Virus record (IMG/VR): IMGVR_UViG_3300030099_007948
Coordinates: 3,460 to 53,262 of that record
Length of the DNA: 49,803 nucleotides
Source of the DNA: a virus
Direction: 5' to 3' (one strand)
The notes beneath the pieces are model-generated. The model searched no databases, had not been told where the DNA came from, and was given only the letters and a program-made list of their open reading frames with translations. Each line of letters starts with the position of its first letter. The first letter of the stretch is position 1. Below are positions 9,335 through 49,803 of the stretch, in pieces. Position numbers and translations under genes: made by a program.

Positions 9335-9342
9335 GCCTTTTA

Positions 9343-9349: not shown

Positions 9350-9354
9350 TTTCT

Positions 9355-11124: not shown

Positions 11125-11127
11125 ATA
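11121..11127 (+). promoter_or_regulatory. late promoter heptamer, stop codon embedded
   Basis: ATAAATA six bases before ATG 11134. The terminase TAA stop (11122-11124) lies inside it. Confidence 0.65.
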
Positions 11128-11133
11128 TACTAT

Positions 11134-11718: not shown

Positions 11719-11738
11719 ATTTTTTTATATGAAATAGG

Positions 11739-11745
11739 ATAAATA
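11739..11745 (+). promoter_or_regulatory. late promoter heptamer for sheath
   Basis: ATAAATA five bases before ATG 11751, here separate from the upstream stop (11718). Confidence 0.65.
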
Positions 11746-11750
11746 ATTTT

Positions 11751-14180
11751 ATGGCAATCGATTTTACTCCAACAATAAGTTCTCCGGGTGTTGAAATAAG
11801 AGAATGGGACCTTTCAAATGTAGCCCTTCCAGGTGTAGGTACAAATGTATACATGACAGGGTTTACACCAGAAGGCCCATATGATGAGGTTGTATTACTT
11901 ACCACACAGCAAGATTTAGATCAAATATACGGGACACCAACAAACTCTGCAGAAAGATATTTTTATCACACTGCTTCTGAGATCTTAAATTCACCAGCAA
12001 ATTTATACGCATCAAGATTACCATACGGGGCAGGAAATGGTGACGGATTCGGTTCGCAGTATTCTGCTTTAGTCTACTCCGGGTCAGCAATTTCTCTCTC
12101 TGGACTCTATGGAGGCGAGGGGTATGGTGATCATGACGGCGGCGGGACATATAGTAGTATAGCTTCCGGTGGTACAGTAGTTATTGGAAAACCGCAGCAT
12201 ATACAACTTACTGAAGCTCAATATCTTAGTGCGGTAAATGATACATTATGGGAGTGGCAAGATAGTAGTGGACTTAAAAAAGCTGGTATAACCAGTGCTG
12301 CGTGTATGTTCGACTCTAATGCTAATACTGTAGGTCATTCCCCATTAGTTATTTTAAACAAATCAACTAGCACCATTAACCAGCGGTATGAAGGTTATTA
12401 TGTTGGTATGATAGGTAATGCTGATATAAACCCTGCTAATAATTTCGTAGGTATTGGTAATACAAAAACGATTGAACAATCAGCATCGCTTACAAGTGAG
12501 TATATTACACTAAACGAATCGGTTTTAGACTTCCCGCTGTCAGCAAATGCAACAACAGGGCCAAATGGTAGTATATCCGAAATAATGGAAAACTTGGTTG
12601 ATTATGATCTTGAGGGAAGAGATAGTGATGATGTTTTAAGTATCGGAGTATTTAAATTACGGAGAACACAAAACGCGCCACAGCCATTCCAGTTAGGTTA
12701 TAACTTGGAAGATAAGTTAGTGGGTTCAATTAACGCAACGAGAAAAATTGACGACCCTAAAGGCGGTAGACAATTAAACTACTTTATTGGGTCTCAAGAC
12801 AGAAATTCTCGTAATGTAGATATAAAAGTTAATTCCTTCATTACACAACTTAATTCGGGTGATGATAATTTAGATGAAAACGGTAATCCTCTATTAAAAA
12901 TAAGAGTGTTAAGTGAAGCATTAGATAGCGCGACAAATGATACACTAGGATTTCCAAATTCAGCGTTGTCAGCATTGAAAGGGACTCTTGGTGAAGCTTC
13001 AAGTTTATTCCCATTAGGGGCTTATAGTAACTCTAAAGTAACTAATAAGGACTTAGGTGATATACCTACTAAGTTAGATAGAGCGTTAGATGGTATTAAG
13101 AACGATGAAATTTATGATATTGATGTTATTCCTGAAGCTGGTTTAGGTACAATTTGGGCAGTTGCAAAATCTAGAGGAATCAGTGGTGGAGCTCCATTGT
13201 ACTATGATGAGTATTATTATCAAGGAACAACAGCATCTGCTATTGATGGGCTAAGAACCGGTAATCCAATAGCTGGCAATGCACTCACTCTTAGAAATAA
13301 TTACAACACTATTTTCGATAAGTTTGAAACATTTGTTAAACCACCATACTTAGGTGGTTCGAGAGGTGATGCAATATTTATTGCTGATACATTTAGACAA
13401 ATTGTTGCGATTGGTAGCGGTGAAGGAAAAATACTTGATGATAAGAGTAAGAACTTCCAGACAGATATTTTCTGGCCGATGAAACATCAGTTTGAGTTAC
13501 AAAATACTTCGTATGCTACAGTATACGGTAACTGGGCACAAACATATGACCAGGGATTAGGTGAACTAGTATGGGTGCCATTTTCTGGATACGCTGCAGC
13601 GGTAATGGCTAGAAGTGATGCTGCAACATTCCCATGGTTTGCGCCGGCTGGATTTAACAGAGGGTTACTCACAACTGCAAATGATATTGCGATAAATCCA
13701 AATCAGAAGCAAAGAGATGAGTTGTATAAGTCTAATATTAACCCAGTGGCGTTCTTCCCATCACAGGGTAACGTTGTATTTGGGCAAAAGACGCTTAACA
13801 AGAAACCAAGCGCGTTTGATAGAATTAACGTTAGAAGGTTGTTCTTATCATTAGAAAGACCTACTAAGAAAGCAGCTCAATTCTTCGTATTCGAGCCTAA
13901 TACAGAATTTACAAGAACAAGATTAGTCAATGTATTAACACCTCTTTTTGAGCGTGCTAAGCAAAACCAAGGGGTTTACGATTACTTGATTGTTTGTGAT
14001 GAAAGAAATAACACACCGCAAGTTATTGATGAGAATAAGCTTAGGGTAGACATTTACCTCAAGCCTGTCAGAACTGCAGAGTTTATCTTAATTACATTCT
14101 ACGCAACTAGAACAGATGCAAACTTCCAAGAAGTCGTTGACGGACCAGGGCTTTTATATGAAGGGAGACCGGTTAGATAA
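11751..14180 (+). CDS. tail sheath protein, gp18-like
   Basis: The contractile sheath subunit. The N-terminus SPGVEIREWDLS is the classic sheath opening. The C-terminal domain has the conserved series NVRRLFLSLE, AAQFFVFEPN, LFERAKQNQGVYDYLIVCDERNN and AEFILITFYATRTD, which forms the sheath-sheath contacts. At 809 residues it is longer than T4 gp18 (659), the extra length falling in the middle, Gly/Ser-rich domains that face outward in known sheaths. It is followed at once by the tube gene, the usual order. Confidence 0.95.
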   Translation: MAIDFTPTISSPGVEIREWDLSNVALPGVGTNVYMTGFTPEGPYDEVVLLTTQQDLDQIYGTPTNSAERYFYHTASEILNSPANLYASRLPYGAGNGDGFGSQYSALVYSGSAISLSGLYGGEGYGDHDGGGTYSSIASGGTVVIGKPQHIQLTEAQYLSAVNDTLWEWQDSSGLKKAGITSAACMFDSNANTVGHSPLVILNKSTSTINQRYEGYYVGMIGNADINPANNFVGIGNTKTIEQSASLTSEYITLNESVLDFPLSANATTGPNGSISEIMENLVDYDLEGRDSDDVLSIGVFKLRRTQNAPQPFQLGYNLEDKLVGSINATRKIDDPKGGRQLNYFIGSQDRNSRNVDIKVNSFITQLNSGDDNLDENGNPLLKIRVLSEALDSATNDTLGFPNSALSALKGTLGEASSLFPLGAYSNSKVTNKDLGDIPTKLDRALDGIKNDEIYDIDVIPEAGLGTIWAVAKSRGISGGAPLYYDEYYYQGTTASAIDGLRTGNPIAGNALTLRNNYNTIFDKFETFVKPPYLGGSRGDAIFIADTFRQIVAIGSGEGKILDDKSKNFQTDIFWPMKHQFELQNTSYATVYGNWAQTYDQGLGELVWVPFSGYAAAVMARSDAATFPWFAPAGFNRGLLTTANDIAINPNQKQRDELYKSNINPVAFFPSQGNVVFGQKTLNKKPSAFDRINVRRLFLSLERPTKKAAQFFVFEPNTEFTRTRLVNVLTPLFERAKQNQGVYDYLIVCDERNNTPQVIDENKLRVDIYLKPVRTAEFILITFYATRTDANFQEVVDGPGLLYEGRPVR

Positions 14181-14192
14181 ATTTAATCAACA

Positions 14193-14199
14193 ATAAATA
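14193..14199 (+). promoter_or_regulatory. late promoter heptamer for tail tube
   Basis: ATAAATA five bases before ATG 14205. Confidence 0.65.
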
Positions 14200-14204
14200 A
14201 TTAT

Positions 14205-14777
14205 ATGGCGACGACAATACAAAACTTTTTTTCAAAGGCACAACAGGCGCAGTTTTCTCGAGATTTTCTTTTTAGAGTTAATAGTGTACAGCTTACAGGA
14301 CCAACACCGGGGTCGACAATAGAGTTTGGTGGTGATAGAGAGCTAATATATGCTAGATCTGCTACTCTTCCAGGAAGGGCGATTGAAAATAAAGTAGTAA
14401 GCTATATGGGACTTGATTTTAATTTACCCGGGAGAGCCACATATACAAATTCTGCTGGTTATTCAATAGACTTTTATGCTGATGCAAATAATTCACTCCG
14501 TGGAAAATTTGAATCAGCTTCAAGAGCTGTATTTGATGATGCAACCAGTAGAGGTGAATATGGCATGCCTGGTACTGGCGACGTTATAACTCTTGATTTG
14601 TTAGATAAACAATTAGCAACAAAAAAACAAATTAAGTTAATTGGAGCTTCTATTCGTGATATTGGTGATTTAAGCTATAATATTGCTGATGGTACCGGTG
14701 AAGTTGTTTCGTTTCCTGTAACTTTTGCATACCACTACTACGAAGATTCTATTTCAGGTGATCAGAACCCATTTTAA
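14205..14777 (+). CDS. tail tube protein, gp19-like
   Basis: Forms the inner tube through which DNA passes. The 190 residues contain blocks typical of T4-like gp19: the helix SKAQQAQFSRDFLFRV, YARSATLPGRAIENKVVSYMG, LDFNLPGRATYT, and SIDFYADANNSLRGKFE. The protein is slightly longer than T4 gp19 (163). Its position directly after sheath agrees. Confidence 0.9.
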   Translation: MATTIQNFFSKAQQAQFSRDFLFRVNSVQLTGPTPGSTIEFGGDRELIYARSATLPGRAIENKVVSYMGLDFNLPGRATYTNSAGYSIDFYADANNSLRGKFESASRAVFDDATSRGEYGMPGTGDVITLDLLDKQLATKKQIKLIGASIRDIGDLSYNIADGTGEVVSFPVTFAYHYYEDSISGDQNPF

Positions 14778-25951: not shown

Positions 25952-27790
25952 ATGCCAAGCGAAGAAAAACAAGACAATAAATTTTTAGATTTTAACCTGC
26001 CACAGGACGCATACGTGGCATTTGATGCCACCACGTTGAAAGATTTTATTATTCAACGTTTAAATGAGAACGAAAAATTTACAGATCAAAACTACGAAGG
26101 TAGTAATCTCGCAGCTATTATCGATATAATAGCTTATTCTTATCACGTTCTTTTATTTTACTTAAACAATACAGCTTCTGAGGTTGATTTCAATCAAGCA
26201 ACACTGTATGAAAACATGAATAGAATTGTTAAGCTTATTGGGTATAAGCCAACCGGTAGGCAAACTTCAGTCGTTCCTGTAAATGCAATTGCAGAAGCTG
26301 CTATGGGTAGAGGTAACTACACTATAAGAAAATATAGTTATTTTCTAGCTGATGCTAATACACAATATACCTTTAACGAGGATTACTCGTTTGACAAAAC
26401 AACTACAAGTGACGAAGTTATAAAGACATTAAACGATAACGTTATATTGTACCAAGGTGTAGTTACGGAGTATCCAAATTATTTTGCACAAGGGATTGAT
26501 TTCGAAACTGTACCTATTGTTGTTGAAGCTATTTCTAATACTGATGCGAGATTTGTAGCAGACAACACAATAAGTGTTTATGTAAAAGAAACAGCTTCCG
26601 ATACATATTACGAGTATAGAGAAGTTGATAATTTATATTTAACTAATTCAACTGATAGGGTTTATGAAAAGAGATTAAATGAAAATGGTTTTTATGAAAT
26701 TAAGTTCGGAGATGGTTCATTTGGGAAAAAGCTAAAGCAAGATGATATTGTATCAATAAACTATATTCTCTCTGATAATAATAGAGGAATCATAAGTAAA
26801 AATGTCATTAATGGTAATAAGCTGTTTGTATATGACTCAGCAAGACAGCGGCAAATATTTAACGATACATATCAAAATAAAGAGCAAACTACATTTCTTA
26901 ATAGTCGATCAGGTACAAATTTAAAAATTAATAACCCTATTAACTCTTCAACCTTAACAGATGCTGAAACTGTTGAGCAGATAAGACAAAATGCTTCTAA
27001 ATTATTCTCTTCACAATTGCGGCTCGTTACAGGAGAAGATTATGAATTTTTTGTAAAGAAAAATCTAGCTAGCGTTGTTAATAGTGTTAAGGTAGTTAAC
27101 AACGATGAATACCTTAATGGTTACATACAGTATTTTTATGATATATGCGTCGATCCAAATAAAGTAAATAGAGTTATTATTAATCAAGTTAATTTTGCTG
27201 ATGCATGTGATTTCAACAATGTTAACTTATTTGTAACACCTAGATTTACTATTACAGAAGATGGCGACTACCCACCTTTCTGTAGTGAGTCGTTTAAAAA
27301 TCTGATAGTTACAACTACATCAGAAAAGAAAATGGTTTCTAATGATGTAGTACCGCGTGATCCTATCTATATGGCTTACGGGTTAGGAATGAGTAATAGC
27401 GATACATTAGACGTAAGTATTTTAAATGATACAAAGCTGTATATTGTTCGCGAGACAACCAATAAAATTAGTAAGCCAACTTTAGTGTCTAAAGCTGCAG
27501 CTGTTATAAGAAAATACTTCTTACCAGCTAACAACGAGTTAGGCCAAAATATAAACTTATCAAAAATGGCAGGTGAAATATTATCTATAACAGGTGTAAA
27601 GCGGATATTTACAAAAAATGAAAACGATGGTTCAATATTTAATGGATTATCGTTATTATCTTTTAACCCACAATACCCTGAAAGTGATATACAATTAGTG
27701 AACCAAGATATAACTCTTCCATATTTTAAATTCCCTTACTTGTATACTACACAGTCTTTAGGTAATAATATAACTGTTATCGATGAGTGA
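25952..27790 (+). CDS. baseplate wedge protein, gp6-like
   Basis: 612 residues (T4 gp6: 660), the central inner-baseplate wedge protein related to gpJ. The N-terminal region has YEGSNLAAIIDIIAYSYHVLLFYLNNTASEV, typical of the family, followed by NRIVKLIGYKPTG. Later comes the FGDGSFGKKLKQDDIVSINYI block. It overlaps the next gene by eight bases. Confidence 0.9.
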   Translation: MPSEEKQDNKFLDFNLPQDAYVAFDATTLKDFIIQRLNENEKFTDQNYEGSNLAAIIDIIAYSYHVLLFYLNNTASEVDFNQATLYENMNRIVKLIGYKPTGRQTSVVPVNAIAEAAMGRGNYTIRKYSYFLADANTQYTFNEDYSFDKTTTSDEVIKTLNDNVILYQGVVTEYPNYFAQGIDFETVPIVVEAISNTDARFVADNTISVYVKETASDTYYEYREVDNLYLTNSTDRVYEKRLNENGFYEIKFGDGSFGKKLKQDDIVSINYILSDNNRGIISKNVINGNKLFVYDSARQRQIFNDTYQNKEQTTFLNSRSGTNLKINNPINSSTLTDAETVEQIRQNASKLFSSQLRLVTGEDYEFFVKKNLASVVNSVKVVNNDEYLNGYIQYFYDICVDPNKVNRVIINQVNFADACDFNNVNLFVTPRFTITEDGDYPPFCSESFKNLIVTTTSEKKMVSNDVVPRDPIYMAYGLGMSNSDTLDVSILNDTKLYIVRETTNKISKPTLVSKAAAVIRKYFLPANNELGQNINLSKMAGEILSITGVKRIFTKNENDGSIFNGLSLLSFNPQYPESDIQLVNQDITLPYFKFPYLYTTQSLGNNITVIDE

Positions 27791-30134: not shown

Positions 30135-32984
30135 ATGGAAGAAATAATTCAAGGGTATCCTGAGGTTAGTTTATCTATAACCAATCCAGACGTAAGAAGA
30201 GAAAACGCTCTAGATAGAAATAGTCCGTTTTCTTTTCTCGACTTTATTAAAAATGTTCGCGAAACTTACGAACCTTCTGATTTACAGAATTTTTACAATG
30301 TATATATCAAAAGATATAACAGGCAGAGTGTAGCTAAGGGTCTGACGGATAAAGAAATTATTATTGAAAGATATAGGGAGTTTCTTAAAGATATTACGTT
30401 AAATTTTTCTACAAATGCAGAGAAAAAATTTCTTTCGCAAATCGATTTTAATGACAAGTATGATTTACAAATAGCGGTTTCTTTTTACAGTAAGAAGATA
30501 AGAAGTATAATCTCTTACTATCAAGTTAAAAGAGAAAAATTACATTTTTCGACGATTAAAGCAAAACTCAAAGGAAGTGACTTTGGGTTTAGACAAAATG
30601 CTTATAATCTTGTTACAGATTTTTTAGCTAATAGAAGTACAGCTGCGCAGGATTATAACATAGATACAATTAAAGAAAACGTAACAGTTTCGTTAACAGA
30701 ATATGTTGATCAATATACACAATATTTTAATGCTGAACCTGATGAAAAAGTTTATGGAAGAAATTTTGTAGAGTATACGCCTGATGGTCCTCCGTTTAGC
30801 AATATATTTTTAACTAACGACACGGTTCTTGTTGAAGAGGTTTTTGCTGGGCTGGATCAAGTTTTAATAGATTTAAAAGAAGCAAATGAGCTGTTCGAAA
30901 ACAAAAGACAGCAAACTGAAAAATTTATTGGTGCAGATTATTACTACCTATCTGCCAATAATGTAGGTACGTATGAAGTAGGGGTATTATTCGAAGCTGA
31001 TAAGCCCTATGCTAATTTTTTAAACACCAATTATCCTTCTGTTGCTTCAGTATTCTCTAACGAAATAAAAAGCGTAAGAGATCAAGGATTTTTTAGACCG
31101 ACAAATGCAAGTATTGTCTCTATAGAAAGTGAACGTCTAGACTTCTTTACTCAAAATTTTTACGGTACAGATAAGCTTTTTATTTTTCCTGATCCTAATT
31201 TATTTACAAACGATGACGATATTTTTACGTTTGTTATCGATACGTCGAGATCTATAAACAATCAAAGTAAGGGTGCAGCTGTTAACCAGCCTAATACAGA
31301 TAAAAATAGTACATCCTTAATGGGATATAACTCTGAGTTACCAACAGGTAAAGATATTAATTCCGATCTTTCTTTTCTCTTTGATCAAGGATATATACAC
31401 GATAGTAAAAGAGATTTAAATGGTAATATTTTTGGGCTTCTAAAAGATCAAAACTATTATAAAAACAATTTTGAAGTTCGGGCAGAGAAAACAATTAAAA
31501 GTTTAATATTAAATGGGTATCAATTTTTTGATGCTTTATATGGGGAAGGATCAAATTTTGATTACGATACTGTAGATGCTGGTGCAACTTACAGTGAAAC
31601 TTATAGGTCGGGCATTACATCTTATACTCAAAACTTTACAGCTGGAACAGTAGCAGAACAAGCTTCTGCTTATGATATATTTGGTCGTTACTTTGGGCCA
31701 TATCAAGAACAAATACCGATACCAACGTTTTCGGCTGTTGATATCGAACAAGTTGGTACAATCGAGGCAGATGTACAGGAGGGTGCTTTCTTTAAGTTTT
31801 CAGATAATGTAAATCTTGATGACGCTGTAAGTACTAATTTAAGCGCATATGACGCTTCTACGGGGGAGTTTTATTTCTCTAATTTATTAGAAGCAGGTGT
31901 ATCGTTTTATGATGACGGATCGACCATTGTGCGCGCATTATGTGACAGCCTTCACCCTGCAGCTACTGGTAATTTTACTTATAATCCAGTCGCTTCCGGT
32001 GATAATAACGTTACAAATATGGAGGGTGGTTTATTTTATGATGATCTAACCTTTAATTACACACCAAGGGAGTTTGAATCAGTCGACTACGTACCAACCA
32101 CATTACGCGAAACAGTAGTTACAGATGTTGTATCTGCAGCTGATAGCTTTTTCACAAAACGAGTCGACTGTGGTAAAATATATGTTAAAAACATAAACAA
32201 ACCTGCAAATTGGCCTAACGTCAAAGAACTTACACAGTCCTTAACATACTTAGATACAAAATACTCAGCAACTATCGGACACGAGCTCTCTACTTGTGTG
32301 AAAAACTTTGACTTACTTTATAACACTTTATTTATCGAGACTAGTTCTTTCTTAGTAGTAGAGAATATTGATTATAATATAGAAACGTTTGATTTTGAAA
32401 ATTCAGGATCTATTTCAAATGTTCTTTCAACAAATACAAATAATTTTGATAAAATAAGTAATCGATTTAAAGTCGGTGATGATGTTTTCTATGCTAAACT
32501 AATACACTCTGGCGTTATTAACGCAAATGTCGTTTTTAAGGATTTTAGAGTATATCCTGAAATTTACAAATTTAACTATAATACAAAGAAAGTAGAGCAA
32601 ATATACCCAACACCTGAAACTTCTGTAACTGATGACGCCTTATACTTTAATAGTATGAGAAATGATGTTGTCATTTTAGAGTCGAGTAAGCCTCAGTTAA
32701 CTTATAGCAGTGATAATGAAGTATTTAATTTAAGCTTTATACTTAAGGACCAGAATAAAGCTCCAAGACTTTATTCTTACATATTTGAATATAAAAATAA
32801 AGTCAACTTTTTATCTACAGAATATTACGTTGCCAATGACACGTCTGAAACCTTTAATTTTATTAAAACATCCGGATGGGGCGTACCAGAACTCGATCTT
32901 AGCTTTTTAGAGTTTGCATTAAGCTCTGGAATACCAGCCATGACTATTTCTTACCCACCATCTGCTGCTTCTATAATATTATGA
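30135..32984 (+). CDS. very large tail structural protein
   Basis: 949 residues, family not recognised. Residues 1-200 are helical with FLDFIKNVRETYEPSDLQNFYNVY and many Lys/Tyr pairs (SIISYYQVKREKLHF). The rest is beta-rich with many Asn/Thr/Tyr residues. By place it could be the gp7 or gp10 equivalent. It overlaps the protease-bearing gene by four bases (ATGA), so the two are probably made in related amounts. Confidence 0.55.
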   Translation: MEEIIQGYPEVSLSITNPDVRRENALDRNSPFSFLDFIKNVRETYEPSDLQNFYNVYIKRYNRQSVAKGLTDKEIIIERYREFLKDITLNFSTNAEKKFLSQIDFNDKYDLQIAVSFYSKKIRSIISYYQVKREKLHFSTIKAKLKGSDFGFRQNAYNLVTDFLANRSTAAQDYNIDTIKENVTVSLTEYVDQYTQYFNAEPDEKVYGRNFVEYTPDGPPFSNIFLTNDTVLVEEVFAGLDQVLIDLKEANELFENKRQQTEKFIGADYYYLSANNVGTYEVGVLFEADKPYANFLNTNYPSVASVFSNEIKSVRDQGFFRPTNASIVSIESERLDFFTQNFYGTDKLFIFPDPNLFTNDDDIFTFVIDTSRSINNQSKGAAVNQPNTDKNSTSLMGYNSELPTGKDINSDLSFLFDQGYIHDSKRDLNGNIFGLLKDQNYYKNNFEVRAEKTIKSLILNGYQFFDALYGEGSNFDYDTVDAGATYSETYRSGITSYTQNFTAGTVAEQASAYDIFGRYFGPYQEQIPIPTFSAVDIEQVGTIEADVQEGAFFKFSDNVNLDDAVSTNLSAYDASTGEFYFSNLLEAGVSFYDDGSTIVRALCDSLHPAATGNFTYNPVASGDNNVTNMEGGLFYDDLTFNYTPREFESVDYVPTTLRETVVTDVVSAADSFFTKRVDCGKIYVKNINKPANWPNVKELTQSLTYLDTKYSATIGHELSTCVKNFDLLYNTLFIETSSFLVVENIDYNIETFDFENSGSISNVLSTNTNNFDKISNRFKVGDDVFYAKLIHSGVINANVVFKDFRVYPEIYKFNYNTKKVEQIYPTPETSVTDDALYFNSMRNDVVILESSKPQLTYSSDNEVFNLSFILKDQNKAPRLYSYIFEYKNKVNFLSTEYYVANDTSETFNFIKTSGWGVPELDLSFLEFALSSGIPAMTISYPPSAASIIL

Positions 32985-34495
32985 ACACTCACACTATATA
33001 TCTCACTTCTACTAATACAGCTGATGATCAAGTACTTAATGAAATTGACTTATTTGATTTAACAAAACTCACGCTAGATCTATCGCAAGTCTACTCAGGT
33101 GTCTTTCCAAACTACTTAGCTATTAATTGGGGCGATAATAGTGACATTGAAGAACCAGATATAACAATATATAGAAATTATAAAACTGATTCAATATACC
33201 CTGAAGTAAAAGATGGTGCTTCACCAGTATTTTTCAATAAGCCATACACGCATATTTTCTATCCATCGGAAACCGCTCTCAAAAAAGTAATGACGATGAG
33301 AGTAAATGTGGGGTATATTACGGGCAACACAACAAAGTTTACAATACCTCTTAACGTTCGAACTGAAGGTTATTTTGAAAATATAAATGATCTAGATTTA
33401 TTAAATGTTAGTTTATTAAACAATAAAGATAATAAATCAATTTTTACGTTTTTAACAAAGCAAGATAATTACGTTTTACAGAGTCATAATAACGACGACA
33501 TAGTGTATGATACTGTGGGTAACATTAATACGTTATCATCATATAAAGATACATCTCATCAAAGTATAACAGAGACACAGTCTTTATTATCTGCTGTTAC
33601 GGACCCTAATGGTTCATCTGCAAAATTTAAATTTATTGAAAGTATTGGTGTTAATACAGCAACTTGGACGTCAACTTTTTGGGGATATGCCAATAGATCG
33701 GTTTACGACTTTTCCGGGACCAGCTATGGGCTATCGGGTAGTAGTCGCGGCGAGGAGATCCCAAGTGATAATAACATAACGTTAATATCACCTAGGCATG
33801 GTGTAGGTGTAGATCACTTTACTAATGATCCTGAAGCAGGCGACGTCGCTTATTTTTATGATCACACTACGGGGGAATCTGTATCCGCAACTATTTCCGG
33901 TGCTGCTAGTATTGGAAATGATTTAAGGGTTTATAGTTTCGAGAGAGATTTATCTACCGCAACAACATCTACAGGTGCTGATAGTAGTATTAAACTTCAT
34001 AAAGTACCATATTTTGCAAACGAAGCTCCAGCAAATACATACCCTGTAGTATACCAGGCTGGTAATAAAGAATTCGACAGTGACCATTTTATTGGTTATG
34101 GTGCAACAGACGTGTTAAATAAATTAACACTAACAAGAAACATCAACAATGAAATTATTAATTCTTATAATAAAGAGGTAATTGTTTTTATTAATTCTGT
34201 TCCTACACCAGGAGGGAATGCAGCACTGCCAGATTTTCGTCTAACTAATGTATCTCCTTCACTCTCAACTTATAACTTAAGTCTAACCGGAGTTGAAAGT
34301 GGTGATAGTGGAGGGCCTATTTATATAACATATGGAAATGAACTTTTGCTTCTAGGAATTATTCAAAGAGAGCAGTCATCCGGGGCAGTAAGTACAAATT
34401 TTGGAAATTTAAATATACAAGCAGATATTGCTACAGGTATGGAAGCGGTAGGAAATACATGGGGATATAAGCTGTCAACAGTTCGCTTAAGTTAA
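32981..34495 (+). CDS. baseplate-row protein with chymotrypsin-like serine protease domain
   Basis: 504 residues. The N-terminal part has a PKD-like turn (LAINWGDNSD, about 47-55). From about residue 265 a serine protease domain follows: TLISPRHGVGVDHF with His279, IGNDLRVYSF with Asp314, and ESGDSGGPIYI with Ser443, where GDSGGP is the S1-family nucleophile motif and G441 sits at the oxyanion position. The closing strands (ELLLLGIIQRE) fit the fold. No signal peptide or clear propeptide is seen. It is coupled by ATGA to the 949-residue gene. The role (fibre maturation, host surface digestion) is unknown. Confidence 0.75.
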   Translation: MNTHTIYLTSTNTADDQVLNEIDLFDLTKLTLDLSQVYSGVFPNYLAINWGDNSDIEEPDITIYRNYKTDSIYPEVKDGASPVFFNKPYTHIFYPSETALKKVMTMRVNVGYITGNTTKFTIPLNVRTEGYFENINDLDLLNVSLLNNKDNKSIFTFLTKQDNYVLQSHNNDDIVYDTVGNINTLSSYKDTSHQSITETQSLLSAVTDPNGSSAKFKFIESIGVNTATWTSTFWGYANRSVYDFSGTSYGLSGSSRGEEIPSDNNITLISPRHGVGVDHFTNDPEAGDVAYFYDHTTGESVSATISGAASIGNDLRVYSFERDLSTATTSTGADSSIKLHKVPYFANEAPANTYPVVYQAGNKEFDSDHFIGYGATDVLNKLTLTRNINNEIINSYNKEVIVFINSVPTPGGNAALPDFRLTNVSPSLSTYNLSLTGVESGDSGGPIYITYGNELLLLGIIQREQSSGAVSTNFGNLNIQADIATGMEAVGNTWGYKLSTVRLS

Positions 34496-39586: not shown

Positions 39587-41080
39587 ATGGCAGACGTAAG
39601 TATAGTAAAATTAAAAGTAAGGCGCGGTACTAACGAGCAACGGAAAACAATTGTATTAGATCAAGGTGAGTTAGGTTATACCTTAGATACAAGAAGGTTG
39701 TATGTTGGAGATGGTGCTTCAGTAGGAGGGCGTGCAGTTAGTAATTTTACCTATGGGCCGTTTGCTCTCGATTCTAATTTAAATATCGAAGGGGCAGAAT
39801 TAGGAGATATTGGTTATGCAAATGGCAAGTTATACGTGTTGTCAGGTACAAATATTAACGATACACTTTCTGGATGGGCCTACATTGGACCGGTGCCTGG
39901 CTCTACATTAGATTTTGGACCAAATAATACTTTAATAGTAGCTACAAGTTCGTTAGATACTAGTCATTTTGCTAACATAGTTTACGGAGATGGTATTAAG
40001 AAAGTAGGAGATCAACTTGCTGTAGATACAAGTTCTGTTTATTTTACATTAAGTAACGGAAAGATTATTTTAAAAGATAATAGCATAACGCCAAACTTAA
40101 TCCCAACAACTGCTTTATCTTCTGGACTCTCGGGTGGTAACGGTGTACCTGTAGCAGTTCATGCAAATACAGGCGAAACTGGTGCATTTGAATTTGATGC
40201 GAATGGTGTTTTAAATTTAAAAGGCACTGGTAGCCAAACAGTAATGTATTCTAGTTTTGCTCCTGGCTCTATAGGCGACGGATTAAATTTAAACGCTAGT
40301 ACAGAAAAGCTTGAAGCAATATTTCAACAAGTAGATAGTTCTTTAACATTATCTGATGGAGTCGTTTCTATAGCTAATGGATTTACAACAAATACAAGCA
40401 CTCAATCCGGTAATGAATGGCCAATGTTAAATGTCTCTAATGGCATTATAAACGGAATGGCGAGTACTATTTGGGATGTTGTAACAGCAACTGGATTATC
40501 GGGTGCTAATTCTGGTAATGATGTACCTATTGGAACAATTCTACCACATGCACGCGCCTTTACAGTCATACCGGATGGATACCTACTCTGCGATGGTAAT
40601 ATCTACTCTTCAACAGAAGATTCAAATTATAGAGAACTGTATAACGTTATTGGTAATAGATACGATACAACTAACGGCTTGCCAGCTCCCGGTGGTAATT
40701 TTTTCAGAGTACCTGCATTAACAGGAGGTAATGTGTTACTATATGGTTCGGATGCTGGCGCACCAGACTCGACAACATACTATATAAGCGGTGATACATT
40801 AGATGACGGTACAGCTTCTTTAAGTGCACAAGGGTTTAACTTTATTATTAGATATTCTTCACAAGAAGGTAATAATGAATTATTTAACGGAACACCAAAC
40901 CAAGTATCTAGAGGTTATCAAGGAATGTACAACCAAAAAGTCTATGAAGCAAGGGATTGTAATGGTGCTGTCACTAGATTAAGTTCTGCAGGATTTATAA
41001 GATTTGCTTTATCCGGATCTTCTAGAAATGACTGTAGTGAACCTTTTGATAGGTTTGCAATTCCTGTATTCAGCTGGTAA
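39587..41080 (+). CDS. tail fibre, Mtd-type N-terminus plus collar domain
   Basis: 497 residues. N-terminus: KLKVRRGTNEQRKTIVLDQGELGYTLDTRRLYVGDGASVGG, the virion-attachment motif of major tropism determinant-type fibres. The C-terminal region from about residue 300 has VPIGTILPHARAFTVIPDGYLLCDGNIYSS, FFRVPALTGGNVLLYGSD, a tail collar domain. The middle is variable beta-rich shaft. It has a diverged paralogue next door. Confidence 0.82.
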   Translation: MADVSIVKLKVRRGTNEQRKTIVLDQGELGYTLDTRRLYVGDGASVGGRAVSNFTYGPFALDSNLNIEGAELGDIGYANGKLYVLSGTNINDTLSGWAYIGPVPGSTLDFGPNNTLIVATSSLDTSHFANIVYGDGIKKVGDQLAVDTSSVYFTLSNGKIILKDNSITPNLIPTTALSSGLSGGNGVPVAVHANTGETGAFEFDANGVLNLKGTGSQTVMYSSFAPGSIGDGLNLNASTEKLEAIFQQVDSSLTLSDGVVSIANGFTTNTSTQSGNEWPMLNVSNGIINGMASTIWDVVTATGLSGANSGNDVPIGTILPHARAFTVIPDGYLLCDGNIYSSTEDSNYRELYNVIGNRYDTTNGLPAPGGNFFRVPALTGGNVLLYGSDAGAPDSTTYYISGDTLDDGTASLSAQGFNFIIRYSSQEGNNELFNGTPNQVSRGYQGMYNQKVYEARDCNGAVTRLSSAGFIRFALSGSSRNDCSEPFDRFAIPVFSW

Positions 41081-41097: not shown

Positions 41098-42717
41098 ATG
41101 GGTATCGAAATTTTAGAAAACACACTATTGAAGCTCCTAGTAAGGAGAGGAACCGATTATGATAGGCAGCAAATTACTCTTGATAGTGGTGAGCTTGGCT
41201 ATACAACAGACACTAAGAGGTTGTGGATAGGTGATGGTACTACTGTAGGAGGTAACTTAGTGGGTAACAAATACAAAGGCAAAGCTGCGAATTTAACAAC
41301 TCTTGCACCAGTTGACATTGGTGATTATGCATTCGATACGGACAACAATTCCTTTTATATATGTACTGAAGGAACTGGTAGTGAATCTACAAACTGGTTA
41401 AAGGTTGCGTCAAACAATGTTGCTGGTAATGAAACTATAGCTATAGATTCAACCGGCGGTGTTACTGTTGGTACTATTTCAGCCGGTAACGTTGCTGCAG
41501 ATGCTCTTGGTACAGGTTTAACTCTAGATTCTACAAACCGGATCGCCCTTAGTAGTACTATTGAAACTGACGGCATCGTACAATCATCTACTGAAGCTTC
41601 AGATTATTTTACACTACCATCAAAACTAAAAATAAACGCGATCAATTATACGTTTCCTTTAGGTGCGCCTGAAAAGGATCAATTTTTACGAGCCGATGCT
41701 TCTGGTGCGCTTGGATGGGGCAATCCTAATATTATAACCACAGGAGTAGCACCAACAACCGCAGCTTTAATCCCTGCAGGTACTATAGTACCGTATGTGT
41801 CTACTGCTGGTAATCCTCATTTTCCAAATGGCTGGTTACCTTGTGATGGTAGAGAAGTATTAAACGCAGATTACCCGGATCTTTCAGCAATTATTACAAC
41901 ACAGTATGGTGGTACTCCTTCTAGCTTCAATGTACCGGACTTTACTAGTAAAGCATTATACGGGTCTGATGATCCGTTTAACAGTACACTATTCCAAATT
42001 AATAGCACTACAGATGTTTCAACATTATCTGCTACCGGTACACTATTTATAATTAAGGCTGTTGGTGGTGTAACAAGCCCAACACTAACAGTAAGTAAGA
42101 ACTTATCTGTTTTCCGTAATAACGTCGACATTACTGGTACAGAATTTAATTACCTTAGCGGTAGTATGAGAATCGAGCGCCCAACACCAGGTAGTTGCGT
42201 ACTTACCACGCCAGGTACATTCGCTAGTGGTTTCCAAATGCCTGCCGGTATAGAGTTTGTTAAGTTTTATGTTACAGGATCAGGTGCAACTGGTGGTAAT
42301 AAAGCCGGTGGTGCTGCAGCAACAGTAACCGGTTATATTTCTGCTGCGGCCGGTACGGTGTTTAGTGTGACAGTCGGTACAAATCCAACTGGAATTAATG
42401 CTAACGGAAATCAAAGTTTAATAAGTAAAGGTGGTGTTAACCTTGCTGTTTCTAATGGTGGTAGAACTTCAACAGGATCCACACCACTACATGGTGAAGG
42501 CACTATTAATACAGGAAGCCAATATGTTACAACAGGTCATGTAATTACCGGTGGTTATGGTGGTGTTATTAACGTTAATCAAAACCTATATAGTAACGGT
42601 GCATCTTCTTTCTGGGGATCAGCTCCAGCGCCCGGCGCTGGTGGAGGTGGTGAAAATGGAAACGGTCCACCAGTCTATTGTGTCGGCCCGGGTATGGTAA
42701 AGTTTGAGTGGTCATAG
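41098..42717 (+). CDS. tail fibre, Mtd-type N-terminus plus collar domain, paralogue
   Basis: 539 residues, related to the preceding fibre: N-terminus LLVRRGTDYDRQQITLDSGELGYTTDTKRLWIGDGTTVGG, collar IPAGTIVPYVSTAG..NGWLPCDGREV and NVPDFTSKALYGSDD. The two share both ends but diverge in the shaft. The end differs: a Gly-rich domain (ATGGNKAGGAAATVTGYISA, then GAGGGGENGNGPP, ending MVKFEWS), a type common at the tips of receptor-binding proteins. Confidence 0.82.
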   Translation: MGIEILENTLLKLLVRRGTDYDRQQITLDSGELGYTTDTKRLWIGDGTTVGGNLVGNKYKGKAANLTTLAPVDIGDYAFDTDNNSFYICTEGTGSESTNWLKVASNNVAGNETIAIDSTGGVTVGTISAGNVAADALGTGLTLDSTNRIALSSTIETDGIVQSSTEASDYFTLPSKLKINAINYTFPLGAPEKDQFLRADASGALGWGNPNIITTGVAPTTAALIPAGTIVPYVSTAGNPHFPNGWLPCDGREVLNADYPDLSAIITTQYGGTPSSFNVPDFTSKALYGSDDPFNSTLFQINSTTDVSTLSATGTLFIIKAVGGVTSPTLTVSKNLSVFRNNVDITGTEFNYLSGSMRIERPTPGSCVLTTPGTFASGFQMPAGIEFVKFYVTGSGATGGNKAGGAAATVTGYISAAAGTVFSVTVGTNPTGINANGNQSLISKGGVNLAVSNGGRTSTGSTPLHGEGTINTGSQYVTTGHVITGGYGGVINVNQNLYSNGASSFWGSAPAPGAGGGGENGNGPPVYCVGPGMVKFEWS

Positions 42718-43157: not shown

Positions 43158-44051
43158 ATGGCTTTTCCTAGTGACATTTCTTTGCCAAATGATGCGAGAT
43201 ATTATTCTTTTATTGAAACAAAGAGAAAATACAACTCAAACTATGATATCATTTGGTCTTTTCAATATAAAATACCAGAAACTATTAATGCTAATAGCGA
43301 TGTACTTAATATAGAAGAGCCAGAAAAATACCAGCTAGGATTTGCTACCTTTTTAACTACACTCTCTTCACCAATTTCAGCATTACCGGGTCAGTATTTA
43401 GGTGATTCTGATCCGGCGTGGATATTATCTGGTGGTAAACTTACTACTGAGGATGATAAATCGATTACAACAGAGGATGGTACATTTATAGAAGTTGAAT
43501 CTCGTTTATTAAGCGGTACATTAATTAAGATAGCGTTTGATACAACTGGTCTCTATGGTATTGAAGGGCGTGATAGTAGAACAGGTGTAAATGTAGATTC
43601 TCGGAAAAAAGAAGCACTCATATTAAGAGATTTTAATAATAACGTTGTTGTTAATGAACATCTCTCTTCTATATCTACATCATTTAGTACGTTATCAACA
43701 GATACATTTAGAACTTTAAGATTTAGATATGTTAATCTAGGACAAAAGTTATTTATTGATTACCATGATTCCGACACAACAACATTTACCACACTCACCA
43801 CTATTGATTTAGGCTTTAGATTAGAAAATTATAGTAATTTAGATGATATATACTGTGGGTTTTCATTTACAACACCAGTCTCAACAACTGCAGTTGATTT
43901 AAGTGCTAAAGAATTTTTCTTAAGAAACTTTCATACAGAAGGGTACGTGGGGTATTCTATTTTAACAGAAACAATTACTAGCGCAGAAATACCAGTAAAT
44001 CCAAATACTGTTACTTCTACTGTTAGTGATATAATAGCTAGACCCGTGTAA
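43158..44051 (+). CDS. tail-associated protein, possible concanavalin-like fold
   Basis: 297 residues, not recognised. The segment LLSGTLIKIAFDTTGLYG, then VVNEHLSS, then LRFRYVNLGQKLFIDYHD, has the strand order and FDTTG(L)YG turn of lectin/glucanase (concanavalin-like) jelly rolls, often used for glycan binding. Confidence is low for the fold. The giant gene begins one base after its stop. Confidence 0.5.
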   Translation: MAFPSDISLPNDARYYSFIETKRKYNSNYDIIWSFQYKIPETINANSDVLNIEEPEKYQLGFATFLTTLSSPISALPGQYLGDSDPAWILSGGKLTTEDDKSITTEDGTFIEVESRLLSGTLIKIAFDTTGLYGIEGRDSRTGVNVDSRKKEALILRDFNNNVVVNEHLSSISTSFSTLSTDTFRTLRFRYVNLGQKLFIDYHDSDTTTFTTLTTIDLGFRLENYSNLDDIYCGFSFTTPVSTTAVDLSAKEFFLRNFHTEGYVGYSILTETITSAEIPVNPNTVTSTVSDIIARPV

Positions 44052-44052: not shown

Positions 44053-47000
44053 ATGTCTCATGATTTAAAACAAGGCTCAAAAGGCTGTAAAGATCAATCA
44101 GGTACTACTGTATCCTATACGTATAGCTGTCACAATAAAACAATTACTGTAACAAAAATAACAGGCGGTGGACCGCTATATAAGTTTTTTAATATAGGAG
44201 GAAACGAGATCGGTAAAATCGTATATACAGGCGGTGATTTTCCAGAGCAGACTTTTACGGATATTATTGACGAAAATGGTAATTTATATCTTTTAGTTGA
44301 AAGCTGTGGTTGTTGTGTAGAAATAAGAGAATCATGTGATGATGTAACTACTACATCTACTACCAGTACATCGACGTCGACATCTACTACTAGCACCACA
44401 CCGCGAGGTACAACCACTAGTACTACATCAACATCCACTAGTACTACAACACCATGTTGTCCGCCTAATGGAACGTGGTATTGGAACGATAACCCAGATT
44501 CCGGGGGGAGTGACTCCGCCAATAAAGGATCGGACATGACTGGGCTATTTGCTAATACCGGATTAGCATCATTTAGAGGAGTGCCAGCTGGTTCAGATGA
44601 ATCGTATGATGTAGATATTTCAAGCTATAATGAAAACGAGCCTAGTAGATTGGGTATTGTTACTGCAAGTGGTACAACTTATTATTACCCGGATAGTGAA
44701 GATAGCTTTATAGTCGACTCGTCTCGCGAGTGGAGTATGCAGTTTGAGCATTTAATTGTATATAACCGGACTGTCAATACATCAATTAACACTGGAACTG
44801 TTCAATCGACAGATGAATCCGTAATACCAGGTGTAGATAGTTTTACTAATAATCAAAGCACGGGCGTATCGCCTGATCGAGCTGAAAGCACGGTAACAAA
44901 AGAAATAAACACATTACTTATATCAACCTTACCAGATCTTAATAGCAAAGTAAATCTCTCTGGAGTTAGCGAAAAGGCTCCGAAGTTTCCAGCTACAGGA
45001 TATGAAAAAGCTGTAACGTTAGTATCACCGTCACACTTTGTAATGTCAAAGCATTGGCCTATTCGAAATCCCGGTAATGCTGTTAATTTTATTGATAACA
45101 ACGGACAACGGGTTACGCGTACCATCACCGGTGTCGAAAACTTAGAAGGTGTAGATATAAGTGTTGGTATTCTTAATACGCCAGTTGAAAATACTGATAT
45201 TTACCCTGTACCAGAACCACGAAAAACAGGAGGGTATGATCAAGAGTTAACAGGTGCGTTTATTGTAGTAGTTGATCAAGAAAGAAAGGCGATTCCAAAA
45301 GAAGTAAGATTTTATTCTGCAAAACGGCAAGCGAAGGGAGGGGAAAAATTAAACTTATATAATTCTATTCCCGATGAATATGCTAATGCTTACCCGGGTA
45401 ATTTAAAGGAAGTACTAGAAAAGGGCGATAGTAGTGGACCGGCATTTATCTATACTGAAGGTGTACCTATTTTAATTGAAACGCATACTTCTAACATAGA
45501 GGGGCCGTTTTACGGTAATGCTGAAACGCAGAAAAAAATTAACGAGGCTATGGCGAGTCTTAGTAATAAAACTGGTGGTGAAGTTTACACGTTACGAACA
45601 GTTGATATTTCAATAAAAGAGGCAAGTGATAATGTAGATCCTGTTGCTACTACAACAACTACAACAACTACAACACCAGCGCCTATACAAACCACAACAC
45701 CATCTACTAGTACATCTACTACAACAGAATTGTTTAGTGGACCGGTTCCTACAATGCGGCCTGCTACTACTGCGACAACTGCTGCACCAGCTAATGATGA
45801 TACAACACCTTTCGCGCGTGCTCCGAAATCTGCTCCAGAAGCGGATACACCTAAAACAGATACACAGGATACAAATAAGAGTCCTTACCCAACACAAGCT
45901 AGTTTTTCGCCGCATTACATGTATGATCCACTAGGTTACGCTATATACGTAACCTCTTTTGAGCAGCATAAAGAATTAGAATTATTAGGTTGGACGCATA
46001 AGGATGGACCTGCAACATACGACACTACAGAATCTAATAATACACCAGCGCCAGATAACACACCAGCACCGGATAATATGCCAGAAACAGGCGTATATAC
46101 AACCTCTCCGCCACGGGGAGGTAATTACACTGCTTATAATAAACTACCTCAGCAAGATCGAACTAACTTCCAGGGCTTGTTTGAAGGCGGGGGTGGTCAA
46201 AACATTGTTGTAAGATCTCAATTAAACGCACAGCTTAATGATGATAACACATATACTATAGTAGCGAGCAATAACAGAAGAAGAGATGGGACTGCTGCAG
46301 AAATACCTATGGTTGTTGATATTAGAGGGCCAGGTGCGTTACAAAATCCTAGAGCTAAGCGTAAGAAAAAAGGCAACAACAACGGACAGGGGTTAGCAGA
46401 TGCTAGAGAAGGATTAGAGCGGAGGCGCCAAGCTTTGAGACCGGGTAGGTTAGGGAATCCTGTAGGTAATCAACCCGGGCCTATAGATCCTGGAGGTTCA
46501 ATACATCAAGCACTTGCAAATGAAGCAAGAAGTATTAACCCACAAGCTGTAGACCGGCTTGGAAATATTGGTAATCCAGGCGACTTTGGTTTCGATGGTA
46601 ATAATCAACCTACAGAACAACGTAAACGTTTTGTTGAGTTACAAGAGATTCAAATTGAGATTAACAAAGAACATGACAAAATTGTAGAGCTGCAAAATAA
46701 AATTGAAAAGTCAATAACGGACTTCGGCATGCCAGAAGAGGGAAGCAAAAGGTATGATAGCATGTTATCAGAGGCTGTTGAGTTGATTAATGACGTGGAT
46801 TTTTATCTAGGTGTCAAGGGGTTGATAGAGGAAGGTGAGGATTTTGTGGATGCTAATCCAGGGCCAATAGGTGGAAATGATGGTAATCCAATTACTCCGG
46901 ATGATGAGGATGCTAGCGGTGGTGATGACGCAGGTGATGACGCCGGTGATGACGCGGGTGATGATGGTGATGATGCCGAGGGAGGTGGTGAAAAGCCTGA

Positions 47001-49803
47001 GTTCTATAGTATATTTCAAGAACTAGGATTAGTAAATATATTTGATCAGACTATTGATCGAGAAAAAATACAAGAGCTAGTTGATGGAAAAGGGCTAGTT
47101 GTAAGATATCCAGAAGGGTCGGAACAATGTTGGAGGTTAGTAGATGTTGATGAGTTATATAAGAGAAAAGATGGACTTGTTCGCACCGATCAGGATGTTT
47201 TATGTACACCTCCATCAGAGCCTGCATGGGAGCCTTGCCCTTGCTGCAAAGATAAACCCGATGATGGTACAACAACAACTACAACATCAACATCTACTAG
47301 TACGTCAACTAGTACTTCAACTAGTACGTCTACATCAACTACTACTCCGTGTCCACCGTGCTGTCCTCCGGCTGGTAAATGGTACTTCGAAGAATTAAAC
47401 AGAACATTCGATGAAGCAAACAATCAAGGAGATTTTGGTAATATCTATATACAACTTACAGTTGATCCTAATGTTGATGATAACAAATTTAAGCTGGGTA
47501 CGTACCAACCACCGCAAGCTGTTCTTACATTTGCAAATGATTATATTCCTAATCCTACAAACGGATTGATATTAAAAGACGATAATAGCGCCGGTGCAGA
47601 ATGGGAAGAGTGTTTAGATAACAGCTTCGGGCGGTGCTTTAAGATTGTTGACGAAGAACTTGTACGACAGAATATAGAGAAATCACCAGCAGAGCTAGTT
47701 GCTGCAGCTTATCAATTTGATAACGAGCAATCAGTAGAGGATCGCTTTGGTAAAGGACATTGGCCAGATGAAATACCTATTGGATATAATGGTCTTGAAA
47801 ACCCTGTTGAAGCTGGTGATGCAGCTGGGGGGTGGGAGTATTGTGAGTGTTGTCCTCCTGAAGATGTAACAACGACGTCAACTACTAGTACATCTACTTC
47901 AACCAGTACATCTACAAGTACAAGTACATCTACTTCAACCAGTACATCTACAAGTACCACGACACCGTGTTGCGTACCAGAGTGCTCTCCGCCAGCGATA
48001 GCATTGGGATTATGGTTTTGGGAAAATGCAGCAATGAATTACCTTATACCGTTTAATGATACGGCAGAAAATGGCATGGTATTCTTTGAAGGTCCGGAAT
48101 TTGAAGGACGTGAGTATGAAGACGGGTTAAAGCCTGGTGAATTTCCAAACCAGAACGGCACAGAACACACTGAGCAAGATATTTCACGTGCATTGCTAGA
48201 AAACGACAGCTTTAAAGCTCAGTCAATGATTGAGTGGGCTATTAGTAAGAAATGGATAACATTAGATCAAGCTGTTGATTTACAACGACGTTTAGATCAA
48301 TGGAGACAGGAGTATGCAGATGCTGATAAAAGGCAGTGTTATTTTATTCATGATGCAGCGTGGGTAAATGCTAATAAAGAAGTTAGACCATCTGAAGATA
48401 TTGATAAGAATGGACAATTTCCGGATGATGATATAGATGGAGATGGAACGCTTGACAAAGGAAAAGGATGGGAAAAGTGTGAGTGTTGCCCGTGTTGTCC
48501 TCCCACACGCTGTGATTTGTGTTGGTATTGGAACGCGAAAAACGATAACGTGTTTATAGATCTTGGTGTTGTTAAATTTAAGCCTGGTGTTAAGGAAGAA
48601 AAGCAAAAACCAGAAGATATACGTGTTCCACGTGGTAACTCTGATCGTGCAGTAGCACAAAGAGCGGCACTAAGAAGGCAGATTGAGGCTGATGACAATG
48701 TAGAAATTTTAAGAGAGAGACCTGGAAGATGGACTATACAACGTACAATACAAGTACGTGATTTAGAGGATAAAGATAAAGATGGTATACCAGATAATGA
48801 TGAGTTTACATTTGAAGTTGAAGAAGGCACGGTAATAAAATACTGCTGTACTGATCCACCTTTTGCTGAAGGATTCGTTGATGATGTTATACAAAATGCT
48901 TTCAATGAAGGTAAAGCGGCGCGTGAAGATGTTGAAAAGAAACAAGAGGCTGTAGCAAACGCACAAACCGATGATGAAAGAGCTGTAGCTCAGAATGCTC
49001 TTAATGTAGCGGAAGAAAGATTAAATGAAGCAACATTAAATTATAGGGTTGCGCAAGGTAACGTAGGTGCAGTACGCAACTTAATTGTTGATAATAATCC
49101 TAAGTTTCTAACACCTACACAAGAAAACCAGTTACGAGATTTATTATCACGTGAACAACGATTACAAGAAGCAAATAGTGGTGTACCACCAGAAGAGCTA
49201 AATGGAGAAAAACCCGGTGAGCGGCGACAATGGGCACAAGACCGTTTTAAAGAGCTTCTTGGTGAAGAAGGTGCTATAGAAGCGCGACAAATTATAAATG
49301 ATGCTTTAGCTAGAGAACGTTTAATAGAAAACGACAACAACTGGAATGCTATTAAACCTGGTAATGAGCTAGGCTTAGGCGATATAAAGGACGGTGATGA
49401 GTTACAAAGATTTGAAAATGATGACGGAATTGTGTTTGATCCAAAGAGGAAAAAGGATGCAAACAATGACGGTGTAATTGATGACGACGAAAAAGGAGAG
49501 GCAGCAATAGACGGGGTTGGAAAGAATTTTGATGAAGATTGTAAAGAAGCTTGCCGCCCGGTTTGCTTCAAAGTTATTAATGCTGATTTCGTTAATGCAA
49601 ATCCTATGCTTAACCCTGCAATCGACGTTTTGATGCATGTCAATAACCCGGCTGTAAACCCACAAAATAGAGATAAACCGGCAAAGCTACGTACTAAAGA
49701 TCTTGAGCCTGGTGATAAAGGATTAGGTTGGGAAATGTGCGAGTGCTGTCCGTGTCCTCCTCCAACCGATGGAGGCGGCGGCGGACCACAACCACCAATA
49801 ATA
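44053..49803 (+). CDS. giant modular protein with serine protease domain, 3' end missing
   Basis: Open from ATG 44053 to the window end, at least 1917 residues, no internal stop. Order: residues 1-96 beta domain ending in a Cys cluster (SCGCC); Thr/Ser linker 99-133; CCPPNGTWYW; serine protease about 317-520 with TLVSPSHFVMSKHW (His334), EGVDISVGILN (Asp368), KGDSSGPAF (Ser460); Thr-rich linker 533-558; Pro/Asn-rich part; a coiled coil near 855-890; an Asp-rich GDDAGDDAGDD stretch near 957-975; linkers 1073-1098 and 1273-1304; then Cys-flanked modules ending GWE-x-CECC-P at about 1476 and 1895. DIDGDG and DKDKDGIPDND loops look calcium-binding. Possibly a long fibre or adhesin. It follows the 297-residue gene with a one-base gap. 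Confidence 0.78.
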   Translation, partial: MSHDLKQGSKGCKDQSGTTVSYTYSCHNKTITVTKITGGGPLYKFFNIGGNEIGKIVYTGGDFPEQTFTDIIDENGNLYLLVESCGCCVEIRESCDDVTTTSTTSTSTSTSTTSTTPRGTTTSTTSTSTSTTTPCCPPNGTWYWNDNPDSGGSDSANKGSDMTGLFANTGLASFRGVPAGSDESYDVDISSYNENEPSRLGIVTASGTTYYYPDSEDSFIVDSSREWSMQFEHLIVYNRTVNTSINTGTVQSTDESVIPGVDSFTNNQSTGVSPDRAESTVTKEINTLLISTLPDLNSKVNLSGVSEKAPKFPATGYEKAVTLVSPSHFVMSKHWPIRNPGNAVNFIDNNGQRVTRTITGVENLEGVDISVGILNTPVENTDIYPVPEPRKTGGYDQELTGAFIVVVDQERKAIPKEVRFYSAKRQAKGGEKLNLYNSIPDEYANAYPGNLKEVLEKGDSSGPAFIYTEGVPILIETHTSNIEGPFYGNAETQKKINEAMASLSNKTGGEVYTLRTVDISIKEASDNVDPVATTTTTTTTTPAPIQTTTPSTSTSTTTELFSGPVPTMRPATTATTAAPANDDTTPFARAPKSAPEADTPKTDTQDTNKSPYPTQASFSPHYMYDPLGYAIYVTSFEQHKELELLGWTHKDGPATYDTTESNNTPAPDNTPAPDNMPETGVYTTSPPRGGNYTAYNKLPQQDRTNFQGLFEGGGGQNIVVRSQLNAQLNDDNTYTIVASNNRRRDGTAAEIPMVVDIRGPGALQNPRAKRKKKGNNNGQGLADAREGLERRRQALRPGRLGNPVGNQPGPIDPGGSIHQALANEARSINPQAVDRLGNIGNPGDFGFDGNNQPTEQRKRFVELQEIQIEINKEHDKIVELQNKIEKSITDFGMPEEGSKRYDSMLSEAVELINDVDFYLGVKGLIEEGEDFVDANPGPIGGNDGNPITPDDEDASGGDDAGDDAGDDAGDDGDDAEGGGEKPEFYSIFQELGLVNIFDQTIDREKIQELVDGKGLVVRYPEGSEQCWRLVDVDELYKRKDGLVRTDQDVLCTPPSEPAWEPCPCCKDKPDDGTTTTTTSTSTSTSTSTSTSTSTSTTTPCPPCCPPAGKWYFEELNRTFDEANNQGDFGNIYIQLTVDPNVDDNKFKLGTYQPPQAVLTFANDYIPNPTNGLILKDDNSAGAEWEECLDNSFGRCFKIVDEELVRQNIEKSPAELVAAAYQFDNEQSVEDRFGKGHWPDEIPIGYNGLENPVEAGDAAGGWEYCECCPPEDVTTTSTTSTSTSTSTSTSTSTSTSTSTSTSTTTPCCVPECSPPAIALGLWFWENAAMNYLIPFNDTAENGMVFFEGPEFEGREYEDGLKPGEFPNQNGTEHTEQDISRALLENDSFKAQSMIEWAISKKWITLDQAVDLQRRLDQWRQEYADADKRQCYFIHDAAWVNANKEVRPSEDIDKNGQFPDDDIDGDGTLDKGKGWEKCECCPCCPPTRCDLCWYWNAKNDNVFIDLGVVKFKPGVKEEKQKPEDIRVPRGNSDRAVAQRAALRRQIEADDNVEILRERPGRWTIQRTIQVRDLEDKDKDGIPDNDEFTFEVEEGTVIKYCCTDPPFAEGFVDDVIQNAFNEGKAAREDVEKKQEAVANAQTDDERAVAQNALNVAEERLNEATLNYRVAQGNVGAVRNLIVDNNPKFLTPTQENQLRDLLSREQRLQEANSGVPPEELNGEKPGERRQWAQDRFKELLGEEGAIEARQIINDALARERLIENDNNWNAIKPGNELGLGDIKDGDELQRFENDDGIVFDPKRKKDANNDGVIDDDEKGEAAIDGVGKNFDEDCKEACRPVCFKVINADFVNANPMLNPAIDVLMHVNNPAVNPQNRDKPAKLRTKDLEPGDKGLGWEMCECCPCPPPTDGGGGGPQPPII
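44347..44451 (+). repeat. Thr/Ser-coding linker repeat 1
   Basis: ACT/ACA/AGT/TCT codon repeats encoding residues 99-133, mostly alternating Thr and Ser, followed by CCPP. Confidence 0.85.
45649..45726 (+). repeat. Thr-coding linker repeat 2
   Basis: Encodes residues 533-558 (polyThr, PAPIQ, then T/S), directly after the protease domain. Confidence 0.8.
47269..47346 (+). repeat. Thr/Ser-coding linker repeat 3
   Basis: Encodes residues 1073-1098, strictly alternating Thr-Ser after six Thr, flanked by CPCC upstream and PCPPCCPP downstream. Confidence 0.85.
47869..47964 (+). repeat. Thr/Ser-coding linker repeat 4
   Basis: Encodes residues 1273-1304, with two near-identical 30-base halves, flanked by CECCPP upstream and PCC downstream. 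Confidence 0.85.

Follow-up and report, generated by a model that had tools for sequence, protein, structure and literature searches.

Most enzymes known from phage tails degrade polysaccharide or peptidoglycan. As for proteases, a trypsin-like one has been mentioned for related T4-superfamily phages (PMC10783043), and a survey of jumbo phages took well-conserved peptidases that track virion type to process viral proteins (PMC7824862). No described phage tail trypsin was found in the open-access literature, and the first 50 kb of Sinorhizobium phage phiM12 contained no trypsin-like protease gene. A documented example of a trypsin-like domain embedded in another protein, that of M26, looks like an inactive pro-enzyme (PMC11970125). 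Here, we analyzed a stretch of 49,803 nucleotides from the virus record IMGVR_UViG_3300030099_007948 (hereafter, the window), which represents a T4-like tail module encoding terminase, sheath, two tube proteins, a gp6-like baseplate wedge, collar fibres and, as the last gene, a giant protein with an embedded serine protease domain.

The S1-type protease domain of the giant protein

The giant frame (44053-49803, + strand) comprises 1,917 codons without a stop and runs off the contig end. Its product of at least 1,917 aa is indeed a phage protein of more than 1900 residues, as the earlier note on this DNA had claimed, and full-length homologues, of 2,058 and about 2,430 aa, are encoded in its two closest relatives, L037 and L038, respectively. 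The catalytic residues and motifs recorded in that note were all found in place, namely TLVSPSHFVMSKHW (aa 322-335), EGVDISVGILN (aa 365-375) and KGDSSGPAF (aa 457-465), giving His334 (45052-45054), Asp368 (45154-45156) and Ser460 (45430-45432). The putative oxyanion Gly458, encoded at nt 45424, occupies an invariant column in an alignment of 14 sequences, and the GDSxGP frame is likewise kept; the residue following the catalytic Ser460 is Ser461, where Gly is usual. The domain had been placed at residues 317-463, which do contain the motifs, but the conserved ungapped block proved wider, spanning about aa 281-522 (44887-45612, +, borders approximate). At the start of the domain, which is internal to the chain, no I/V-V/I-G-G activation N-terminus of the S1A trypsinogen type was found.

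Thr/Ser-rich runs at aa 99-134 (44347-44454) and aa 547-558 (45691-45726) flank the domain upstream and downstream, in line with the linkers described earlier. Two further long runs (aa 1073-1099 and 1273-1305, in the region 47269-47967) sit between Cys-pair modules of the form CCPP...WYW...ECCP, and the 41 cysteines of the whole frame include none in the protease domain. Throughout the C-terminal half (47260-49740), such modules are repeated together with acidic, DxNxDG-type stretches resembling calcium loops. The L038 giant additionally carries, upstream of its protease (about 7940-10000 of that contig), a YVGYYHIHPDKGPMEGPRHV motif and a long stretch rich in Ala, Glu and Arg that resembles a coiled coil, both missing from the window giant.

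Single-sequence searches with the giant domain gave no match in Pfam, PHROGs, NCBIfam, the PDB or cultured phages, and a Pfam search with three giant-type domains returned, up to an E value of 10, only a stray DUF6623; the case therefore stood on the motifs alone until relatives turned up. A loose His-Asp-GDS[GS][GS]P pattern, composed after the sequence had been seen, occurred in none of 20,000 shuffles of the giant protein, and GDS[GS]GP alone in 14 of the 20,000. The relatives provided a stronger test than the shuffles, since the 14-sequence alignment has few invariant columns and these include the catalytic His, Asp and Ser; a chance motif was ruled out by both. Covering this domain and the second protease group described below, the alignment has 12 invariant columns, including His334, Asp368, Gly458, Asp459, Ser460 and Pro463, with the giant domain being 23-32% identical to the non-giant members. 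The triad and GDSxxP are invariant in these 14 relatives and are also kept in three more divergent giants (22-25% identity).

The domains of L012 and L017, uncultured phage contigs found by a degenerate DNA scan for GDSxGPAF, were 73% and 71% identical to the window domain, ungapped over 242 residues, between divergent flanks. Along the giant, identity is greatest within the protease block and some stretches of the C-terminal half, with a steep drop to either side of the domain, which is therefore a discrete module. For the three pairs of giant domains, dN/dS was 0.17, 0.19 and 0.26, figures that are rough because dS is near 1 for two of the pairs; synonymous changes exceed replacements, and the domain is under purifying selection. 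This selection, together with a frame open over 1,917 codons, ruled out an error of reading frame.

Comparison of the combined profile with classical phage trypsins by hhalign gave a probability of 96.5 and an E value of 7e-10 over the His-Asp half, in which the His and Asp of the giant align with those of the phage trypsins; the unrelated tail protein used as control reached 0.15. Two of these trypsins match PF00089, and it is only through them that the link to a curated S1 profile runs.

AlphaFold2 supplied with the 14-sequence alignment yielded a model with a pTM of 0.71 and a mean pLDDT of 64.7, whereas three close relatives only gave an unusable one (pLDDT 42). Among the matches listed by Foldseek against the PDB, all were S1-type folds (SepA, plasmin, factor Xa, trypsin), and VIA gave Z values up to 11.2 with an rmsd of 3.5 for 157 residues, over model residues 9-224; the best viral structural match was an uncharacterised protein of an uncultured phage. 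The first barrel, the last strands and the last helix were well modelled, while confidence was low for the Ser460 loop and for the central part of the second barrel (model residues 127-161 and 165-177, with a pLDDT of less than 50). The double beta-barrel chymotrypsin fold, for which structure prediction had been proposed as a check, is thus present in the model with part of the second barrel at low confidence, and the low-confidence segments leave the active-site geometry tentative. Profile, predicted fold and invariant triad agree, and together they identify the domain, on sequence and model, as a real one of the trypsin/chymotrypsin type (S1, clan PA), in accordance with the earlier assignment. 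We further infer from the sequence that it is a catalytically competent S1 protease.

A second protease and the distribution of the pair

The same tail module encodes a second S1-type protease 10.6 kb upstream of the giant's, which the earlier note had missed. It forms the C-terminal part (aa ~200-504; 33578-34492, +) of a 504-aa protein (32981-34495, +), whose motifs ITLISPRHGVGVDHF, GNDLRV and ESGDSGGPIYI give His279 (33815), Asp314 (33920) and, within GDSGGP, Ser443 (34307). A profile of three giant-type domains matched the C-terminal part of this protein and of its homologues, and each group's profile recovers the other group among the ORFs of the examined loci. When three-sequence alignments of the giant type and the 504-aa type were compared by hhalign, the three catalytic residues were paired within 207 aligned columns, with a probability of 89.6 and an E value of 1.9e-6 in one comparison. 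The N-terminal ~172 aa of the 504-aa protein are conserved in related phages as a stand-alone short protein of the baseplate region. In place of the 504-aa protein, related contigs have a homologue of 177-217 aa that aligns only to residues 1-174, so that the protease constitutes a module appended at the C-terminus.

Further contigs with the second protease are G022, G023 and G024, whose giants at the same locus have a protease domain that has diverged much further (22-25% identity) and includes ITPRHVLISRH, GDYNISVLD and GDSSSP. Each of the six contigs spanning the two loci encodes the two proteases together, and a protease profile search of related contigs, found via the 297-aa gene directly upstream of the giant, detected neither. 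The six carriers group together in a tree built from the 297-aa gene (support 85/91); a single origin for both proteases is therefore the simplest account, the co-occurrence not counting as six independent events, and the pair may mark one clade.

Degenerate DNA scans for GDSxGPAF/GDSGGP found true members only in L012, L017, L138, L152, L181 and L182, along with the known contigs again; the remaining matches were mostly unrelated or classical trypsins and were set aside. Outside the clade of the six carriers, a protease of the same subfamily is fused in L182 to a Big_2 Ig-like domain (profile A5, E 1.8e-11). The podovirus MW202510 also carries the subfamily in its tail region, in the hypothetical protein UOF78081.1 (L204, 3413-4648; profile A9, E 4.9e-17 on the enclosing 428-aa frame). 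This frame adjoins genes annotated as structural protein, rhamnogalacturonan lyase and fN3, with the protease between the last two. Relatives of 577 aa in L096 and L097 adjoin UvsX-like and queuosine genes. Two scans of bacterial and archaeal genomes with short peptide patterns revealed no relative, and cellular members may still occur; a plasmid search likewise found none. The view that such a protease is not a standard tail component was borne out by the cultured phages of the collection, which are without it, but must be tempered by the second copy upstream and by the presence of the family in other environmental phages. As Pfam, PHROGs and single-sequence searches all miss the family, tail-borne proteases may be under-counted.

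Genome setting and possible roles

The giant is encoded after the gp6-like baseplate gene (wedge subunit, phrog_219; 25952-27790, +) and the collar-fibre genes (a tail fibre/collar-like protein at 39587-41080 and a tail collar/short tail fibre-like protein at 41098-42717, both +), and its homologues hold the same position in L037, L038 and L195-L197. Its ATG lies one base past the stop of the 297-aa gene (43158-44051, +), which has no family match and served as the synteny anchor for related phages. From this place directly after baseplate and tail-fibre genes, it is plausible that the giant is a virion protein. Elsewhere in the window, an 809-aa sheath protein that matches known sheaths over residues 373-795 only lies between two tail-tube paralogues, each assigned to phrog_45 (11134-14777), and a gene on the minus strand (79-1119) strongly matches the phage-borne dehydrogenase family phrog_9582 (E 1.8e-113), possibly representing an auxiliary metabolic gene.

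At the giant's position, the sister phages L077 (10867-14670) and L086 (10878-14939) have a large ORF that encodes a right-handed beta-helix (PF13229) and no protease; this ORF following the 297-aa gene is the positional equivalent of the giant, with little or no sequence similarity to it. L083 lacks the giant, and a glycosyltransferase gene (10877-11731) directly follows the 297-aa gene. In L037 (15330-19712) and L038 (15248-18854), the post-giant genes encode glycosyltransferases (GT2, GT29-like, capsular-type), a PIG-L deacetylase and methyltransferases, a region of which the window stops short. The GT29 gene product near the giant is sialyltransferase-like. These downstream genes are possibly a glycosylation cassette for the Thr/Ser-rich giant, and O-glycosylation of the giant is a fair guess from its many Thr/Ser runs.

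Of the three roles that the earlier note had offered, namely cutting of host surface proteins, fibre processing and triggering on binding, we favoured the first. In this uncultured T4-like phage, the giant's protease is a discrete module of a long, Cys-rich chain with Thr/Ser linkers, encoded where the tail-fibre cluster ends, and the homologous second protease is fused to the C-terminus of a small baseplate-region protein; most likely both belong to the adsorption apparatus. They would cut protein on the exterior of the host cell, such as an outer-membrane, S-layer, sheath or matrix protein, letting the tail reach its receptor as tailspike depolymerases do by cutting polysaccharide. A role at the surface is suggested by the giant's position after the baseplate and fibre genes, by the beta-helix, a fold used by tailspikes, at the same site in L077 and L086, and by the Big_2 fusion in L182 and the location of the MW202510 protease between rhamnogalacturonan lyase and fN3 genes. 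Taken together, catalysis, presence in the virion and cutting of host-surface protein during adsorption have, in our estimation, about an even chance of being correct. In view of the inactive-looking trypsin domain embedded in M26 (PMC11970125), activity of the giant domain may need a trigger.

The two homologous proteases, encoded together in all six contigs and absent together from related ones, would also fit a shared substrate within the virion, and both might cut phage proteins (the giant itself, the fibres or each other) in tail assembly or on triggering, a role comparable to that of self-cleaving fibre parts or of the prohead proteases that mature heads. The interpretation given to conserved peptidases that follow virion type in jumbo phages (PMC7824862) points the same way. 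Related T4-like phages with homologous fibre genes, however, build their tails without either protease, and the domain lies between linkers inside the giant with no obvious cleavage junction adjoining it; no marks of cleavage sites were found in this analysis. We regard such processing as somewhat unlikely. The same dispensability of the giant for tail assembly in relatives such as L083 would suit a protein made in the infected cell and displayed or released late, acting on proteins of the host or of competitors and not in adsorption, as would the 577-aa relatives beside UvsX-like and queuosine genes. The tight linkage to fibre genes through the single base separating the giant from the 297-aa gene, the Thr/Ser linkers and repeated Cys-pair modules befitting an extended surface protein, and the fusion of the second copy to a baseplate-region protein render this role distinctly improbable.

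Retention of the trypsin fold as a protein-binding module or structural spacer devoid of catalysis would be consistent with an embedded domain having no free N-terminus and with GDSSGP or GDSSSP where GDSGGP is expected, and the M26 domain is a documented inactive embedded case (PMC11970125). Invariance of His, Asp and Ser down to 22-25% identity, while most columns vary, would be unexpected in the absence of catalysis, and this account appears rather improbable to us. Returning to the cutting of host-surface protein, a more specific proposal, possible rather than probable, is that this T4-like lineage bears a baseplate-region protease and a second one on a mucin-like protein glycosylated by the phage's own glycosyltransferases, digesting host surface protein much as other phages digest capsule. 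The conserved pair of tail-module proteases, which has so far turned up solely in phages known from metagenomes, would suggest that layers of protein stand in the way of phage entry. The giant domain is compact (about 240 aa, no cysteines) and suited to expression alongside one point mutant.

Comparison with known systems

With the S1 peptidases of clan PA (SepA, plasmin, chymotrypsin, Esp), the giant domain shares the His-Asp-Ser order, GDSxGP and the predicted two-barrel fold. It is only 11-20% identical to them and has no Pfam Trypsin match, no cysteines and no IVGG-type activation site, and it lies mid-chain in the giant. Fold and triad are likewise common to the classical phage trypsins (PF00089), for example L117 and L164, but those two are ORFs of 242-255 aa consisting of the domain alone, whereas the proteases described here are modules of tail-region proteins. 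L182 and UOF78081.1 of MW202510, hypothetical or unannotated, belong to the same subfamily by profile and differ in phage type and partner domains. The M26 trypsin-like domain is similarly embedded in a much larger surface protein, a likeness of architecture; it is bacterial, its crystallised form was inactive, and N-terminal excision has been proposed as a requirement (PMC11970125). Tailspike depolymerases, which are built on the beta-helix that sister phages have at the giant's position, may share with the giant the role of clearing a surface layer, but they act on polysaccharide, while the giant's protease would act on protein. Collectively, we judge that these proteases, attached as they are to tail proteins, make up a phage subfamily of S1 peptidases that is new, as is its architecture, within an enzyme kind that is already known.
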